From positions 310,001 through 374,000 of the forward strand of contig VLTN01000019.1 in the NCBI GenBank assembly GCA_008330645.1: a stretch of DNA of 64,000 bases. The letters are read 5' to 3'. The translations under genes and the position numbers were made by a program. The notes under the pieces were generated by a model, which was given only the letters and a program-made list of their open reading frames with translations, was not told the DNA's origin and did no database searches. This document shows positions 53,862 to 64,000 of the stretch, one piece after another (position 1 is the stretch's first letter; the number at the start of each line of letters is the position of its first letter). The stretch comes from Cafeteria roenbergensis. Taxonomy: Eukaryota; Sar; Bigyra; Bicosoecida; Cafeteriaceae.

Positions 53862-54061
53862 GCAAAGGCCGCGGCGACGGGCCGCTGCCCTGGCCCAGGG
53901 CAGCCCTGCGTGTGTCTAACAGTGCGTGCGTTCCTGAGTGTTGCGGGCCGCGGTGTTGCGCGTAGCGCCGGCAATGCACGGCCGAGCCTCTTGCAGGCGC
54001 CCGCTCACGCTGTCCTGGCCCGCCGCCGCCCAACCAACAGCCACCACAGTCCCCAGGGACC

Positions 54062-56505
54062 TTAGTCCACCACAATCCAGCTCTCGCCCCCCAGCGAGTC
54101 GGAGTCCGACGCGCCAGACCCCCGCGAGTCCGCGGACGACTGCGACTCCCCCTCGCTCGACTCGGAGTGGCCGCCGCCGCGCCGCGCCGCGCCCCGCCTC
54201 CGCTTGGCAGGGCGGGGCGACGACTGCTCCTCGTCTTCCCGTGGGTCCCACGCGTCCGGGTCGGAGGCCGTGGAGTGCTGCCGCCGGGCCCCGGCCGGGG
54301 CGCCCACGGCTTGCAGGCGCAGCGGCCGGACCACGCCGCGGCCCCCCTGCTGCCGCCGCTCCAGCGCCCCTGCCGCCTGAGGGAGGGTCAGTGTGGTCCC
54401 GGGGCTGCGCAGGTCGATTTCCATCTGACCCGGAGCGCACCTGCCGCGCTTGGGAGCTCTGCCAGCGGGGGCGTCGGGCAGCGCAGTCCGCCCGCCATGC
54501 TCACCGCCCCGGGCAGGCTCGCCACTCGCGCCAGCGCCTGCCTTGCCGCCGCCGTCACCCGCCGCCGAAGCCCCTCCTTCGCGGCCGCGGTTCGCGTGAT
54601 CATCCTCCCCCCCCCCCCCTCCTCCTCCTCCTCCTCCTGGCTGGACCACTCTTCTCGAAGGCGCGCCCTGACGCCGCGAGGAGCGTCTGCCCGGTACGGC
54701 ACCGCGGCCAGCGCTGCGCGGCGCGCAGCGGCGGCCGCAGCCGCGTTGTCCAAGGCGGCCACGCTGGCGTGCTTGCCCCTCGCGCTGGGCAGCGGCAAGC
54801 AGGACAACAGGCCCGCGCCGTCGGAACGCGGCATCGCCCCGGGGACCTCCCACCATTGCCTTGAGGTGCCTGGCTGCACTCCGGCGGCAGCGCTGGTGGG
54901 CGCCCGGCCCGCGCTGCCCAGCCCTCTGGGCGCGGTTGCGGCCGGCCAGGCCCCGTCTGCGCGCGCGGCGGTCGCCGCGGCCCCCGCCGCTCCGCCGCCC
55001 GCCCTCGCGCTGCCGGCCGCGAGCCAGCTCGGCCCCGCCGACGTCCCCGCTCGCTGGGGGTCGGACCCTGCTCCCAGAGCGGTCAGTCCGCCCGGAGTCA
55101 CCGGCTCGGGCGGCTCCGTTGCGGCGGTGAAGCGCTTGCCAGGCGCACACACGTCGCAGGTCCCCCTGCAGGCCCCCGCGGACCCCCTCTGCCCAAAGTA
55201 CTCGAGGAGGACGCTGCGGCGGCACCGGTCCTTGCCCTCGGCGTAGGCCTGCATCTGCTCCAGCTTGGACCTGTCCTCGTCCACGGCAGGCCCGGACCTG
55301 CCCCGGCGCGCGCCTTTGCCGCCCCTGGAGCTGAGCGTGATCAGTCGCTTGGACCGGGTGACGTCCTTCCTTGAGTAGAGCAGAACGCACTGCGCCGCCC
55401 TGCCGTCGCGCCCCGCGCGGCCGCTCTCCTGGTAGTATCCCTCGAGCGACTTGGCCATGGTGAAGTGCACGACGAAGCGCACGCGGGGGCAGTCGATTCC
55501 CATCCCATAGGCGATGGTGGCCACGACCACGCGCACGGCGCCGCCCTGCCACAGCCGTTGCACGGTCTGCTTCTGGAGCGGGGTCATGCCGGCGTGGTAC
55601 TGGTCCGCGCTGACCCCGCCCCGCTTGAGGAAGGAGGCCACCTCCTCGGTCTCGTCCCGGCTGAGGCAGTACACGATGCCGATGTCCGTGGGCCGCCGCT
55701 CCCTCGTGACCAGGTCCAGCACGGCCTGCAGGGCCGCGGCTTTGCCGTCCGGCTTGGGCCTCACCTCGTACCGCAAGTTCGGCCTGTTGAAGTCGTTCAC
55801 CACCACGGCGGTGTCGGCCCGCATCGCCAGGCTGGACTTGATGTCCTCGACCACGCGTGGCGTCGCCGTCGCCGTCAGGGCCATCACGGGCGCCCCTGGG
55901 AACCGCGACCGAAGGCTCCCCAGCTGCCGGTACGCTGGGCGGAAGTCGTGGCCCCACTGAGAGACGCAGTGGCACTCATCCACCACAATCCTGGCCAACA
56001 GCCCGCCCGCGTGCAGCTTCCGCAGCACCGCGTCGAGGCCGGCGGACGCCCCGCACAGCCGCTCGGGGGTCACGAACAGCACCTTGCAGTCGCAAAACGG
56101 CGCCGGGCCGTCAGCCGCGCCGCCGGGCACGCCGCCGGGCACACGCTCCATCGCAGCGTCCGCTGAGCGGTGCAGGTCGAAGAGCAAGGCCCTGCAGTCG
56201 GCCTCCGTCTGCTCCGAGCTCAGGTAGGCTGCGGGGATGCCCCCGCACACGCTTGCCGTTCCCCTCACCAGGTGCACGACCTGGTCCTGGATCAGCGACA
56301 GGAGCGGCGAGACGACAATCGTGACTCCTGGGCTCATGCAGGCCGTCAGCCCGAAGCACAGGCTCTTTCCGGCTCCTGTGGGCATCAGTGCCAGCACGTC
56401 CCGCCCGGCCAGGGCGGCTCGCACGGCCTGCTCCTGCCCCGGGCGGAACCCGCTGAAGCCGAACAGCCGCTTCAGCGCGTAGTGGACGTCGTCATCAGAC
56501 GACAT
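54062..56505 (-). CDS. RecQ-family DNA helicase
   Basis: Exons 54505-56505 and 54062-54424 (80-base intron) give 787 residues. RecQ helicases unwind DNA 3' to 5' and act in recombination and fork repair in the nucleus. Seen: FSGFRPGQEQAV (motif 0, Q24), Walker A MPTGAGKSL with K47, VDECHCVSQWGHDFR (DEAH-like box with the aromatic loop), ALTATATPRV, DFNRPNLRYEV, ATIAYGMGIDCPRV and YYQESGRAGRDG. The zinc-binding subdomain follows (CRRSVLLEYFGQ, CRGTCDVC). I see no clear RQC winged helix or HRDC domain; instead the last 250 residues are low-complexity, ending with an acidic Ser-rich tail (ASDSDSLGGESWIVVD). The size suggests a RecQ5- or RecQ1-like enzyme, not BLM or WRN. The upstream in-frame GTG at 56643 was rejected. 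Confidence 0.92.
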
Positions 56506-56742
56506 CCGCAGCGGCGCCCTGCGGAGGGCCCAGGCAGCTGCGCCGCGAGGAACTGCGGGGCGCTCTGACCCGGCGGCCGCCTCCACAGGCGCGGACGGTG
56601 CGAGCGCGTTCGAAACAACACATTGCTGCAGAGCCGGTCGCACAAAGCTTTGGCCGACGACGAAGGCTTGGAGGTCGCAGGCGCGACGGGTCTCCCCCGC
56701 ACCGCGGCACTCCGGGGCTCAGCGGCCGGCTGCGTGGCAGCC
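56506..56742. promoter_or_regulatory. Divergent promoter, RecQ and sugar-nucleotide transporter
   Basis: These 237 bases separate two start codons. The plus-strand frame is open upstream of 56743 but has no ATG there. A short AT-richer stretch at 56610-56625 is the only visible feature. Confidence 0.35.
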
Positions 56743-58096
56743 ATGTTCGCCAAGATGTCGCCGGAGACGTGGAAGGGCCTGATGATCTGCGTCATGTACG
56801 CTGCATGCTCGACGTTTCTGTCCATGATGTACAAGGCTATCCTCTCGGTGTGGGACTTCCAGTGCTCGTTCATTCTGCTTGCGTGCCAGGTGTCGGCCGG
56901 GCTCGGGTTCTGTCTGGTCGCTATGCAGGTTGCCCCGGGCTCCCCGCTGCTGCAGCTCAAGCCCTTCAAGACGGAAACCTTCTTGGCGTGAGCTGCAAAA
57001 CCAACAAACGTGTTGCCGAGCCGCATTTCCGCGAAGTCGGCCCGCCGCCCCTCTGCCCCAGGCCCGCCAATCCGGGCTGGGAGCCCGATGCAGCTCGACG
57101 GGGCGCTCGTGCTTGTCCGGGCGTCCCCGTGTCGGCTCGCTGCCGGCCAAGGCCAGGCCCGGCCGCGCAACGCTTTGTGCCGGTGGCTCGCTGAGGCCGC
57201 CTGCTCGCGCCAGGCCCTTGCGACTGCGGCCCGCAACGGCCACCGCGAGTTCTGCTGTCCCGCGGGAGCCCCTCCGTCATAACCGCAGGTCGCTTCCTCT
57301 CGGTCTGCTGTACGTGGCGAACCTGGCGGTTGGCTGGTGGGGCTTGGCGCTGGTGGACGTGCCCATGTTCCTGGCGATCCGGCGCACCACCACGGTTATG
57401 ACGATGGTCATTGAGTTCTTCATGATTGGCACGGCGCCCTCTGTCTTTGTCCGGCTCGCGGTGGGCGTCATGATGCTCGGCACCATCGTGGCGGGCTGGG
57501 AATCGTTCAACGACGACTTCCGCGGCTACATGTTCACGCTGCTCAACAACCTCATCACGGCCGTGCAGCTCAACTTCGCCAAGAAGTTCCGCAACGAGCA
57601 CGACGTCCAGGGCTTCGGCCTCGTCTTCTACAACGGCCTGACCGCCCTGCCCGTCTCCCTCGTGCTGGCAGGCGTCCTCGGGGAGTTCGAAGTGGCAGCA
57701 AACTTCGAGCACCTCACTCACCCCGGATTCATCGCCGCAGTCCTCATCGCCAGCGTGTCGGGCGCCTTCATGACCTACGTCGTCCTCCTGTGCGCAACGG
57801 TCAACTCACCCACCGCCACCTCCGTCACCGGCAACATCAAGGACATCGTGACCACCTTCATCGGCGCATCGCTCTTCGAGGGCTTCGAGCCCACGCTGGC
57901 CAAAGTGTTGGGCCTCGGCATCAGCTTCGTGGGCGGCGGCTGGTTCAGCTACCTCAAGCTCGAGGAGTCGGGCGCGCTCGCCAAGCCCGCGGAGCCGGTC
58001 AAGGCCACCATCGTTGCCGGCCCGATCGAGGAGGACGCCTTCGAGGAGAGCGCCGTGGACTCTGGCGACGAGGGCCGGCCTCTTGCGCGCGTGTAA
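56743..58096 (+). CDS. SLC35D-like nucleotide-sugar transporter
   Basis: Exons 56743-56987 and 57289-58096 (301-base intron, GC|G codon) give 350 residues. The family exchanges nucleotide sugars such as GDP-mannose, UDP-GlcNAc or UDP-xylose for the nucleotide monophosphate across the Golgi or ER membrane. About ten hydrophobic helices are visible. Family landmarks: LLYVANLAVGWWGLAL, VPMFLAIRRTTTVMTMVIEF (the RR-TTV-T core), GWESFNDDFRGYMFTLLNN, VYN-type motif FGLVFYNGLTALP, and NSPTATSVTGNIKDIVTTFIG near the end. The C-terminal tail is acidic with EEDAFEESAVD. The substrate cannot be fixed from sequence; SLC35D and plant GONST-like members are the closest by memory. Confidence 0.9.
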
Positions 58097-58434
58097 GCCG
58101 GTGCAGCGCGCAACCGGGCTGGTCACGACGGCTCACATGGCGACGCTGTTGGACGGGCCGCCAGCACAGCGAGTCGCCGGCTGGGTTTGGCTGGGTGAGC
58201 GCGCCGGGCTCGCAAGGCTGCTGCACGCGGGCGCTCTCTGCCTTGGCAAGCATGGCGCACAGTCGCTCCTACTGCCAGCCGCCTCGGCTCCCAGGAGGCT
58301 GGCCCTGCCCGCGTGGCCGAGCTTGTCGCTGCGAATACTCATCTGAGTTGACCAAAGATATTTGGCTCCCGCAGCCAAACTCAGCTCAAGCCAGTCACAG
58401 TCCCAAGCACGCGCTGCCACCACTCGCGTGCGCC
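58097..58434. promoter_or_regulatory. Intergenic, transporter to glutaminyl cyclase, with an AT-rich palindrome
   Basis: These 338 bases lie between two plus-strand genes. An inverted repeat CCAAAGATATTTGG (58352-58365) lies about 70 bases before the next ATG and is the most AT-rich patch nearby. It may be a core promoter or a MADS/CArG-like site. Nothing else is recognised. Confidence 0.35.
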
Positions 58435-59691
58435 ATGGCACGCCGCAAACGGGGAGCGCGGTCCAGGGAGGGCGCCACCCCGCGCGGCGACCGAGTTGCC
58501 TCGGCCAGCGGGGCTCCCAAGGGGCAGGACGGCCCCGCGCAGCCCTCAGCCACAGCGCAGGCATCGGCGGAGCATTCCGCCCCGCCCGCAGTGGGCCCGA
58601 GGATCCTGGCCGCGGCCATCGTCGTTGTTATCGCGGTTGCCATCGCGCTGCTGGCCACGTGGGCCCCGTCGCAAACGGCCGGGGAGCAGACGCCGGCTGC
58701 TGCGCCATCCGCCTCAGTGGTCGATTCGGCGCCACTGCCCTCTCCCAGTGCCGTCGCCCCCCCCGGAAACGCATCGCTATCGCTGCGGGAGCAGCTTCAG
58801 TACCGCGGGCACGAGCTTACGGGCGAATACAGCATCGTGCGCTCCTTTCCACACGACTCGAACGCCTTCACGTGAGCATGGCCGCAACCGGCTCCGCGTT
58901 GCCTTGGAGGGGGCTCCGGGGAACTGCGTCGCCCGCACGCCAGGGCCAATCCCGCACGCATGTTGCGCACCTGGCCCCCCGCTGCGCGTGCCCGCAGGCA
59001 GGGCCTTGCAATGTTCGAGGGAAGGCTGTTCGAGTCCACGGGGCTGTACGGGCACTCCTCTGTCAGGGAACTCGACCCACAGACAGGCGCAGTGCTGCGC
59101 AGCATCCGCATGAGCGACGCGGTGTTCGGCGAGGGCATGGCGGTGATGGAACAGGGGCTGGCCAAGGTCCTGACTTGGCGGGCGCGTCAGGCGTTCGAAT
59201 ACAACGTCAGCACCATGCGCCCAGTCAGCCAGCAGTCGTTCCAGTCGGAGAGCGGGGAAGGCTGGGGCCTCGCGTACGATGGAGACGACCTCTTGCTCAC
59301 CGACGGGAGCGACAGGCTGCAACGGGTCGACAGGCGAACGATGCGGCCCATCACCAGCACGCTCGTGCACGGCAGCTCGGGGCGAGTGCGGCTGCTCAAC
59401 GAGGCAGAGTGGGTGTTGGGGGAGGTCTTGGCCAATGTGTGGTTTGAGGACTACATTGTTCGCATCGACCCCGGCACGGGGCGGGTCCTTGGGACGCTGG
59501 ACATGACCAGGGTGGGCATTCCTGCTCGGCGCGCCGACGGGAACAACGTGCTCAACGGCATCGCCTGCGACCCTGCCACGTTCGCCGACGATGGCGGCGT
59601 GAGGTGCTTCGTGACGGGCAAGCAGTGGGACCGCATGCACGAGGTTCGGCTCCTCACCCAGCCGCGAGCGGCCGGCGGCGCGTCGCTCTGA
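58435..59691 (+). CDS. Glutaminyl-peptide cyclotransferase (plant/bacterial type), membrane-anchored
   Basis: Exons 58435-58871 and 58998-59691 (126-base intron, AC|G codon) give 376 residues. The enzyme turns N-terminal glutamine into pyroglutamate in the secretory pathway; this beta-propeller type is unrelated to the animal zinc enzyme. Residues about 54-77 (ILAAAIVVVIAVAIALLATW) form a signal anchor, so the catalytic part faces the ER/Golgi lumen or cell surface. Propeller landmarks: HDSNAFT-QGLAMFEGRLFES, TGLYGHSSVRE, GEGMAVMEQGLAKVLTW, GEGWGLAYDGDDLLLTDGS, LNEAEWVLGEVLANVW, DYIVRIDPGTGRVLG and VLNGIACDP. The splice joins two frames exactly at FTQGL, a conserved family site. An N-terminal Arg/Lys-rich cytosolic stub precedes the anchor. 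Confidence 0.93.
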
Positions 59692-59934
59692 TGCGCCGCC
59701 GCCGACTTTGCACAGCTGGCCCCTCGCTGGGCTAGTGTCGCGTGCGTGACGCGCCCCGCCGCCCTCACAGATGCGGCATATTGCACTGTGAGTCAGGGCC
59801 GTGCCGCATGGGAACGGTCTCGGGGGCCTGCCGCTGCGCTTGGGCGTCTGCGCACTCTCGCACATGCGAAAGCAACACGCATGGCTTCGCGGCGGCAGCC
59901 TGGCAGCAATCCAACGCCCGCGCGTCGTCGGATC

Positions 59935-62900
59935 CTACACAACTGACTTGTATCCCAACGCTGGCCGGGGCCGAGCCAGCAACGCCAGAGCGCGCTCCTT
60001 GGGGTCGAACACGTAGCGGCCCTCGGCCTGCGAGTGCTCCTGCACGAAGCCTCCCAGGAACTCCCACCGGGGAACAAACTGCCAGTCGGGCACCTCATTC
60101 AGCAAGCCCTGCAGCGAGATGGACCGGTACGGGGGACCGGCTGCGCTGGGCAGCTCCCACACGCCCCCAACGTTGGACAGGAGCACCTTGGACATGCACA
60201 GCACGCCAGCGCCGGGCGCGCGCGTGGTGTACGTCACGGCCACGCTGCACGGCGAGCTTGACGACAGTCGCACCACGAAGGCGCCCTCCACTCCGAGCCT
60301 CAGGGCGTCAACAAGCATGGCCTCGGCGCTAGCTGAATCCAGAAACGGGTGGAACGGCGCCGCCTCGCTGAGCGCCCACAAGCCGTCCGCGCCCTCGAGG
60401 ATGCGCATCGCGTCCGCGAGCCACGGCCACAGCACGCAGCTCCACTGCGCGAAGGACACCATCTGCGAGGCCCCCAGGGGCTGGCCGCCACGGGCCAGCA
60501 CGTCCATGAGGAACTCCGCGTCGCCCTCCGTGAAGTCACGCGCCGCGAGCCCCTGTGGCGCGCTGGTGCCCAGCTGGTCGCGGATGCTGCACAGCACCTT
60601 GTCCCAGCTGCAGGGGCGCGAGACGCAGTCCACTGCCGCAGGGTCCACCTCGTCCTGCAGCCGCATCGCGATCCAGTGGCGCGCGCCCAACCAATCCAAG
60701 CCGTGTCCCGGCCCCAGCAGCTGCCCCGCCCGCCTCAGCAGGCCGGCTTCTGTCCAGTCCTGGCCGATAGGACCGGCTGGTGCAGCCGCCGATGCCGCTG
60801 CTGCAGCAACTGCTGCGCCTGCGGCCACCGCCGCCGGCTCTAGGGGGACGTGCGCCCGTGATGCCGCTGCCTCAGAGTCCACGTCCGTGGACGGGTCCTG
60901 CTCCACCCCGCTGTGGCGATCGCCGAACACTTCGCTGGCGATGGACTGATCGGCCGGAGGGCCGAACGCCGCGGCGACGCGCCGCTGCTGCGAGTCAGTC
61001 GGAGAGAGGGGGTGGAAGCCGCTCTGCGCGCCGGAACCGCTGCCTCTGGCGTCCCAGGGCAGCGTGCTCGAAGCGTCGCCTCCGTCGTGCGGCGTCGGCC
61101 TCGCGTCCTCCTTGCGGGGGGTCTTGAAGCCCTCCAGGTCAAAGCTGGGCTGCCTGGGCCCGAAGAACGGGTCACTGTCGGCAGAGCCCGTGGCTCGCAG
61201 GTACGGGCCGCTCTTGATGCCGTGGCCGGCCTCTCCGTCCGAGCCGGTCGAGTCGCAATCGCTGACGTCGAACATTTCAGCGGCGAGCCCCACGGGTCTG
61301 AGCGGGGTTCCACTTGCAGTGGCACCAAGGGCTGGCGCGAAGGCTCCGCCAATGGCAACATCCATATCCATGGCCATGGAGACAGTCTTGCGAACCGCCT
61401 CGGGCGACATGGCCTCGAGCACGGCCCCCAGCGTGCGCTGAGGTGCCCTGGCAAGCAACTGGGCAAGGCGGACAAGCGCTCCGGGGGCCCCGTTGCAGGC
61501 CCTCACGGGAGCCACGTACTTCGCCACGGCCTTTCCAAGATGGCACGATTCTGCCTTGTACTGGGCGGTCAGCAGCCCGAGGTCGCTCGTGTGGGTGTGA
61601 TGAAACGGGAGCCAGTGGACGAACAGCATCCCAGAGTCGGCGGGTGACAGCGGCGAAACGTGCAGCACGCTCTCCGACCCGCCGCCCTCAATGCGGGGGG
61701 CGAGGGGCCGGCCGCTGGTGGTGTAGAGCACGCGCGGGCTGCCCCCGCTGCTGAGAAGCGCGCCAATGAGGCTGCGAGCGTCCGTATCCGTGCCGGGCTG
61801 GGCCTGCGCGTGGGAGCGCTGCCGCTCCACCGGCTGCGTCGAGGCACGGGCCATGCGGCTCACCGGGGCGCGGAGCTCGGACTCCGCGCGCTCGGAAGAG
61901 GCGCGAGTGCCTTCCCCAAGCGGCAGGAGGCAGCTCGCGGACACAGTCCTGCCGTGCTGCAGGTTGCCGCGAACAGCCATGGGCGTGCCTGCCAAGCCGG
62001 CGCGAGCGGGCGGGTGGCTTCGGCAGTGGCCGGCGTACGCAGGGCTCTCGGAGGGGTCGTCGCCGAGGTCGGGCCCGCCCTGGCTGCCTTCCGGGTCGCT
62101 CGCCACCGAGCCGACGCTCCTGCTATCCTGCAGCGGGGCCTGGGGCCGCCCACTGCGCGCCGCCGCGTTGCTCGCGCGGCCCGGCGGCGACAGCGCGTCA
62201 GGCCCCTCGGCCTGGGGGTCGAGCTGGCCTGGGCTGCCGCTTCGCGAGGAGGCTGGCCCCGTCGTGCGCGCAGTCGGGGTGGCGCTTGTCGCCCCTCCGG
62301 CTGTGCCTGCTGCCTCGGCTCCCGGGGCGGCAGGGCCCCCGTCATCGCCGTCGTCATCGTCTTCCTCCTCTGGCCGGCCCGTGCGCGCCACCACTGCGTG
62401 CGCCTCCGGGTCTTGGGCCATGACTGGCGGGCCGACGGCGCGCGCAGGAGCCGCTGCCACATCTCCAAACGCTGCCTGCGGCGAGGCGAGGGACCGCGCC
62501 CTGGCCCTCACCCCCGCGCCGTCGCCAGCGCTCCGCCAGTCATCGATCCGCCCGCTCGCTCCGGGCGTCTGCACGTCAAGCGCCCCCTCTCCCTGCCAGG
62601 ACTTCCGCGCCGCGCCCCCTCCGCCCACAGAGCCCCCGACAGAGGGGTCCCCGGAGGGGGGGCGGGCGCCGATGCTGCGGCGCCCCCCCACCTCCGTCGC
62701 GTGCGGGAGCGAGTCCAGGCCGTCGAACACGATGAGCGCGCGGGGGAAGCAGCGCCGGATGGCGCGCACAGCGTCGGCCTCGGTCTTGACCGCGTGCTTG
62801 GCGAGGCTGGCCGCGAGCCGCGTTCCCGCTGCCGCTCGCCTTGCTGCGCGCATAAGCAGCTCCCACACGGGCCGGGCAGGAGCGGGGGAAAGATCGTCGG

Positions 62901-63908
62901 CATCCAACCCGCAGCCGGGCTCGTCTGCGTCCTCCGCGGCAGCCTTTGCTGCCGCTGCCGCCAGGCCAGTCGGCCGCGCGGCGCTCGCAGCGCTGCCCTC
63001 GGGCGAGGGCCCGGAATCCAGATCCTCCTGCCCTGGGCTGGCCCGGAGGCCAGTGTCTGCGTCGACAGCAGGCCGGCCCCAGGCCCCGCTGGCGCCCCAT
63101 CCAGCGTGGGCGGGGTCTCGCATGCGGCGCCTTGCAGCGCGCACGTGCTTGCGCAGGTCCACGAACAGCACGCCTCCCGGGAAGATTCGCCTCCGGTGCG
63201 CGAAGCGGCAGGCCGCGGAAGCGACTGTGGAAAGGCCAAGGCCGCGCCGCTCGTCCTCCGCCCGCAGGCAGACACAGGAGGCGCTGGCAAGGGCGGACAG
63301 GGTGTTGTGGACGATGACGTTGCGACCAAAGACGGAGCGGGGCGGCGCGGGGAAGTAGCTTAGCGGAGGCGGCGGCGTCTCGTCGACCCACGCCCCGTCG
63401 GCCGTGTCTCCAAACACTGCCACCTTGTGCGCTGTGGTCCGCCCGCTGATGAGGGCGTCCACCGTGGTCGGGTCCGTGCCGCGCCCCAGCAGGACGAAGG
63501 GGCACTCTCGCGTCTCCAGCCGGGTCGTGCTGAGCGCGCGGTCGAAGGACGCGAGCACCGTCAGGCGGTTCTGCAAGAGGCAGCTGTAGAAGACGCTGGC
63601 GAAGGACCGAACGGTTTGGTCGCTCACTGCCTTGGTGGTTCCGACCACATGCGGCACGCCAGCGATGGCGAAGGCCTCCGCCGCCTTGTTGGAGTGGCAC
63701 GCGGCCGCGAACACGAGCTGCAAGCCGTTCAACGCGCTGTGGCGGAGCGGCGAGGGGCGCCCTGCCGCCGCGAGCGACGCAGCTGAGGGCGCTGGCGCGA
63801 CGGCGACGGGAGTGCTGGGTGGGGGCGTGACTTGGCACTGGAGCAACTGCGAGAGGTGCGACGAGGGGGTCTCCTGTGTGCCCCCGGCGCTCGTCTCCAG
63901 CATGAGGT
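59935..63908 (-). CDS. CHAT - NB-ARC-like STAND ATPase - SH2 protein (5' end off-window)
   Basis: One open frame of 1,322 residues from the ATG at 63903; the exon probably starts at 63908 after a GCAG acceptor, with earlier exons off-window. Residue numbers use that ATG. C-terminal half of a caspase-like CHAT domain: LQLVFAAACHSN (C69), AGVPHVVGTTKAVSDQ and FASVFYSCLL (to about 125); its His half is expected upstream. NB-ARC-like STAND core: FGRNVIVHNTLSALA (192-206), a degenerate P-loop RRGLGLST (219-226) with no Lys, FPGGVLFVDLR (241-251), Walker B ALIVFDGLD with D394, sensor-like VLYTTSGRPLA (about 725), LSPADSGMLF and NGAPGAL (about 803). A disordered insertion of about 320 residues splits it. 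C-terminal SH2 at about 1186-1275 with GAFVVRLSSSS (R1212), preceded by a STAT-like Trp-rich linker (about 1140-1185). The end GYKSVV could be a phosphotyrosine or PDZ ligand. Function is inferred. Confidence 0.72.
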
Positions 63909-64000
63909 CTGCGGTCGCGCCCCGGGCAGTGCAGGGCGGGGCGGGGCGGGGGGGAAGGCGGTGTGGCGAAGCGGGGCAGTGCGGGACGAGGCGGGGAGGA
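63909..64000 (-). other. Probable intron at the right edge
   Basis: The sequence before 63908 ends GACCGCAG on the minus strand and has CCCCG repeats at 63934-63952, as in two other introns here. No ATG-led continuation of the CHAT frame is visible, so I read this as the 3' end of an intron. A 5' leader starting near the edge is the alternative. Confidence 0.45.

Follow-up and report, generated by a model that had tools for sequence, protein, structure and literature searches.

The analysed window comprises 64,000 nucleotides of the Cafeteria roenbergensis genome (C19:310001-374000; C-numbers denote contigs of this same genome, which was searched as 167 contigs of 36,303,456 bases). On the minus strand, one reading frame was open from position 63999 to a stop at 59935 (1354 codons). 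The initial annotation had described motifs of a CHAT, a STAND and an SH2 domain, in this order and without a stop, and all of the quoted motifs were found in this frame. By protein search, the frame was identified as part of the deposited C. roenbergensis gene FNF28_00672 ('CHAT domain-containing'), the protein of which is referred to as P0001. C. roenbergensis is a bicosoecid stramenopile, and neither a haptophyte nor a cryptophyte. Apart from the spliced parts, the window frame and P0001 differed at two residues.

Gene model and neighbourhood

The initial annotation had called for the upstream exons, and two of these were found just outside the window: exon 1 with the ATG at C19:374668-374485 and exon 2 at C19:374303-374214. 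Both join the frame at C19:373908, in phase and via GT-AG introns, and the start of P0001 is identical. The upstream end assigned earlier, 63908, coincides with the base that directly follows the exon 3 splice acceptor. The start of exon 3 (63832-63908, minus strand, as are all features of the gene given below; ..HLMLETSAGGTQETPSSHLSQLLQCQ) encodes the CHAT linker between the putative catalytic His and Cys, and its GT-AG phase join is identical to that of FNF28_00672. The deposited model omits two in-frame stretches as introns, one of 114 bases with GT..AG ends (63718-63831) and one of 216 bases (62476-62691), and both are absent from P0001. Gene prediction in C. roenbergensis was in general supported by RNA-seq, according to the relevant part of PMC6972860. 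The C-terminal end and the stop codon, as read from the frame, occupy 59935-60090.

Long open frames overlap in this region (38 frames of at least 150 amino acids in 54000-64000), and the frame could thus be an artefact in which domains of different genes are joined, as GC-rich DNA has few stops. In contrast to this explanation, the deposited FNF28_00672 model is a single gene, and in a metagenomic relative, P0002 (43% overall identity to the window protein), the parts follow one another in this order within a single predicted protein. The P0002 prediction begins shortly before the Cys motif, and runs from the Cys half of CHAT through a STAND-like core to an SH2-like tail, as in the case of P0001. 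An artefact of the frame is, accordingly, highly improbable. The order of CHAT, STAND-like and SH2-like parts in one gene is supported by these predicted models, and the three parts very probably belong together.

Relatives were sought among 5.8 billion proteins, with the 8000 candidates sharing most words scored per search, and the protein itself and P0002 were the only ones detected. Scans of viral and prokaryote contigs, with two peptide patterns each, one of them of low complexity, gave no relative, and P0001 had no match in PADLOC or NCBIfam. The six neighbouring frames encode a RecQ helicase, a glutamine cyclotransferase (window 58876-59691, 208.5 bits, adjoining the gene on the opposite strand), a Ras-like fragment, a CDP-alcohol phosphatidyltransferase, a transporter-like protein (below cut-offs) and one protein without a match; no defence gene or defence cluster was found among these six.

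The CHAT domain and the STAND-like core

The CHAT profile of Pfam matched the frame alone at 26.6 bits, P0001 at 40.3 bits and the frame joined to exons 1 and 2 at 42.2 bits (E 8.7e-11), all over the cut-off of 24. The 'CHAT half-domain' of the initial annotation is therefore a CHAT domain, but not a half: it is complete once the two upstream exons are added. Exon 2 carries the motif HFLGHG (His86 of P0001) and exon 3 the motif AACHSN (Cys124 of P0001, codon 63699-63697), which we take to be the catalytic His and Cys motifs of CHAT. The C-terminal half of the domain lies at 63472-63717, a stretch in which P0002 shares 51 of 80 residues, the Cys among them; the CHAT match of P0002 reached 23.7 bits, just under the cut-off. 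These results show that the window gene encodes a full CHAT domain with a putative catalytic His and Cys, and its product may be active as a CHAT protease.

The genome holds five CHAT matches by profile search. In three of the genes, on C32, C69 and C97, CHAT is followed by a P-loop region with GKS or GKST, and the match to NACHT was 26.8 bits for C97 (cut-off 26.7), while those to AAA_16 were 27.1 bits for C32 and 28.3 bits for C69 (cut-off 32.6). We compared the P-loop region of the window protein (63151-63357) with those of C32, C69 and C97, and obtained a score of 47.3, while none of 100 shuffles exceeded 17.7. The window gene thus resembles these genes in having CHAT and then a STAND-like P-loop region, but the GKS/T is kept only in the latter: the alignment sets the sequence RGLGLS at their GKS position, and therefore the Walker A lysine is a leucine in the window protein (codon 63234-63232). 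RGLGLS is identical in P0002, where the lysine is likewise a leucine. No SH2 motif of the GAF-V-R type was found in the examined stretches of C32, C69 and C97.

Several side observations were made on these and other genes of the genome. The gene on C69 (C69:92650-100999) lies in a very long open frame with, by eye, an LRR-like stretch, CHAT and a STAND-like core in order. The CHAT-STAND protein on C32 (C32:40767-47892) has, close to its N-terminus, a PUA-like stretch that just missed the cut-off of 24.8 (24.7 bits), and the fifth CHAT gene (C10:601844-604529) shows kelch-like sequence after CHAT, by eye. A strong NACHT match (42.5 bits) was detected at C2:1115110-1115631, inside a frame of 4658 codons.

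Downstream of its P-loop region, the window protein keeps the acidic strand of Walker B (62707-62742, RALIVFDGLDSL), which reads LIVFDGLD, and LLVIDGVD in P0002; a weak NACHT match extends across it. A sensor 1-like strand (61702-61740, SPRVLYTTSGRPL) is conserved with P0002, the surrounding segment being identical at 33 of 70 residues, and the motif at 61453-61500 (ACNGAPGALVRLAQLL) is presumably GxP-like. NACHT remained below its Pfam cut-off of 26.7, with 13.0 bits (E 0.094) for the frame and 13.7 bits (E 0.056) for P0001. As to the NB-ARC-like core proposed initially, the P-loop region was thus confirmed as homologous to those of STAND-like genes, but the Pfam cut-off was missed and the Walker A lysine is absent. 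These results show that the central part of the predicted protein carries a STAND-like P-loop region in which the lysine is lost. This loss makes a nucleotide switch doubtful, and with it the proposal that the protein is 'ligand-gated' in the classical sense. NLR-like receptors usually sense via repeats. Pfam listed CHAT and NACHT alone, both for the frame and for P0001, and no C-terminal LRR, WD40, TPR or ANK repeats were detected.

SH2 domains are mostly docking modules. The SH2-like tail may direct the protease to membranes or to substrates that carry phosphotyrosine, with the degenerate STAND region as a scaffold rather than a switch-like receptor. This explanation is favoured by the main role of SH2 domains in docking and by the absence of the P-loop lysine from both the window protein and P0002, but the Walker B and sensor-like strands are still conserved, and inactive STAND cores can be regulatory partners, as in the iSTAND proteins of bacterial conflict systems (described in part of PMC7159879). 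We regard this targeting explanation as rather unlikely. The iSTAND proteins resemble the window protein in having a STAND core without catalytic competence, but belong to bacterial vWA-MoxR gene systems, according to the same part of PMC7159879.

The SH2-like tail and the SH2-ended genes of the genome

Between the STAND-like core and the tail lies a conserved, helical-looking segment (60355-60762), in which 70 of 131 aligned residues are identical in P0002 and for which no family was found. A STAT-like linker, suggested by eye at this position, was rejected, as 39 of 200 shuffles reached its score. The tail itself (60091-60354) includes the sequence GAFVVRLSSSS with a putative phosphotyrosine-contacting arginine (Arg1195, codon 60270-60268), and both the arginine and the motif are identical in P0002. 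When the 221-residue tail was searched alone with Pfam, SH2 was the sole match, at 13.5 bits (E 0.082), below the cut-off of 21; Pfam gave no SH2 match in the whole frame, in a 121-residue piece of the tail or in the tail of P0002. SH2 domains usually carry a His before the second strand, and this residue was not seen in the tail by eye.

We then compared the tail pair of the window protein and P0002 as a profile with 11 known SH2 domains, the sequences of which were typed from recall. The score was 37.5 (P 1.3e-5), while the maximum of 100 shuffles was 20.6. Among 11 control segments of the window protein, 10 scored 12.4 or less, and the eleventh, which overlaps the tail, scored 35.0. The recognizable part is the first half, from 60354 to about 60220, or approximately 45 residues including the arginine; for the second half, the score was reached by 39 of 200 shuffles. 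A PDB search with the tail pair gave two sequences, GRB2 (E 1.5) and a DARPin repeat protein (E 0.0012), the latter taken as an artefact, as its single stretches had E values of 63 or worse.

The SH2 domain of the initial annotation was thus recovered in its first half with the arginine, which exceeded all 100 shuffles, but missed the Pfam cut-off and was not detected in its second half; it is the weakest of the parts of the window gene. Read literally, Pfam leaves two of the three domains without an above-threshold match, an outcome that the initial annotation had named as speaking against its reading. The more sensitive tests overrule this result for the STAND-like region and for the first half of the SH2-like tail.

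Two other genes of the genome have a STAND-like core and a C-terminal SH2 domain. The first (C36:188762-192967) is deposited as FNF31_02360 and FNF27_06026, 'SH2 domain-containing', and its SH2 domain scored 26.6 bits in Pfam, over the cut-off of 21. By alignment with the second gene, its P-loop reads GYGRSS, with the lysine replaced by arginine. A search with this protein among 5.8 billion proteins gave two records, both from the same species. The second gene (C1:593742-596879) is an open frame with a TIR-like start, an intact STAND-like P-loop (GCGKT) and an SH2 tail. Its Pfam matches were all below cut-off: 22.9 bits for TIR_2 (28), up to 23.0 for NACHT (26.7) and 17.1 for SH2 (21). Compared with known structures, its start gave weak matches to bacterial TIR domains (E 0.27 and 0.38) and its tail an SH2 match (E 0.0065). 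The start of the C36 protein resembles this TIR-like start only via an alignment of the pair (30% overall). Two NACHT-like matches, one beside the C36 gene and one on C46, were set aside, as by eye the former is an ABC-type ATPase and the latter a protein resembling a helicase.

The C36 tail detected C1 in a search of the genome (E 8.7e-8), the reverse search detected C36 (E 1.8e-7), and the two tails jointly scored 49.3 against known SH2 domains, with 100 shuffles reaching at most 19.9. The genome search with the Pfam SH2 profile found only C36, even at E values up to 10, and missed both the window gene and C1; any number of SH2 genes counted here is therefore a minimum. Both genes resemble the window gene in the STAND-like core and the C-terminal SH2, but differ in that they have no CHAT, that their SH2 domains are full length and that their tails are not demonstrably the closest to that of the window protein. 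A genome search with the window tail gave itself and two weak matches elsewhere (E 0.03 and 0.07), neither of them C36 or C1. When the C36 tail was added to the tail pair, 176 SH2 matches were obtained in the PDB (best E 3.5e-5), and these matches lean on C36. A direct comparison of the tail pair with the C36 and C1 tails was not significant (score 18.8; the best three of 100 shuffles scored 21.9 to 23.6). For the three tails, separate gains are therefore as likely as shared ancestry.

The tail could also be a degenerate SH2 domain, or another fold with a GAFVVR-like motif arisen by chance, and would then not bind phosphotyrosine. The unsupported second half, the Pfam score below cut-off and the lack of a link to the C36 and C1 tails agree with this possibility. 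It is less compatible with the first half, which stands above every shuffle and the 10 other segments, with the identity of the arginine and its motif in P0002, and with the presence of two further STAND-like genes ending in SH2 in the same genome. We consider it improbable, and the tail, read as SH2-like, may bind phosphotyrosine.

NLR-like architecture and a possible link to phosphotyrosine signalling

The best-known setting of SH2 domains is the tyrosine-kinase signalling of animals and their relatives. Among the best 20 of 146 genome matches to the kinase family PF07714, one was tyrosine-kinase-like (C33:215055-215711), with the loop HRDIAARN and the sequence PIRWLAPEAL, which we assume to be tyrosine-kinase-like motifs; the exact pattern HRDLAARN had no match in the genome. 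Tyrosine phosphatase gave four genome matches. In conjunction with the C33 kinase, these matches indicate that candidates for a writer and an eraser of phosphotyrosine exist.

The window protein can be compared with several described systems. In fungi, NLR-like proteins that begin with a CHAT protease are described in parts of PMC10197012 and PMC12881547, and support the earlier comparison with CHAT-bearing NLR-like proteins. As in the window protein, a CHAT effector precedes a STAND-like core in one protein; in contrast, the C-terminal part of the fungal proteins is described as WD40, TPR or ANK repeats, whereas that of the window protein is SH2-like and its P-loop lysine is lost. In the choanoflagellate proteins with TIR and SH2 domains, SH2 is likewise joined to an immune-type effector domain, but neither CHAT nor a STAND core is named in the part of PMC6040629 concerned. 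In the open-licence literature, no paper pairing SH2 with CHAT was found, and a search for SH2 and NLR in protists gave an unrelated paper only; a literature match for SH2 as an integrated domain of NLRs was discarded, as 'SH2' there is a barley line. This agrees with the initial statement that no described protein with this domain order is known. CHAT-STAND proteins are known; what is new is such a protein with an SH2-like tail, of which no description was found.

The best explanation, which we hold with about equal belief and doubt, is that one gene encodes an NLR-like protein with a CHAT effector, a degenerate STAND-like hub and an SH2-like sensor or recruiter, a design that resembles an unusual immune receptor. 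The order kept in P0002, the SH2-ended genes on C36 and C1 and the writer and eraser candidates speak for it, and the missed Pfam cut-offs for STAND and SH2, the undetected second half of the tail, the lost lysine and the lack of a defence gene among the six neighbours speak against it. With effector, STAND core and C-terminal sensor predicted in one protein, it is 'NLR-like' by architecture only. A CHAT protease of this kind may answer to phosphotyrosine, a mechanism that we propose with slightly more doubt than belief. The SH2-like tail would dock on a tyrosine-phosphorylated protein, and docking would release or cluster the STAND-like hub, perhaps jointly with a STAND paralogue that is intact. 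This change in the hub would bring CHAT domains together, so that a substrate would be cut by the protease as part of a response in defence or cell death. Oligomerization of the window protein and a role in defence are both suggested by this reading.

It is conceivable, if quite doubtful, that SH2-ended NLR-like proteins form a class in this bicosoecid, with a shared plan and interchangeable effectors (CHAT or TIR-like). Such proteins might watch phosphotyrosine signalling within the cell, for example for its disturbance by the giant virus of this flagellate, and P-loop-deficient members might sense for intact ones. If the proposed reading is true, phosphotyrosine signalling would be tied directly to a caspase-like effector in a stramenopile, one that, according to PMC6972860, hosts the giant virus CroV, and protist immunity could then be tested on one protein.
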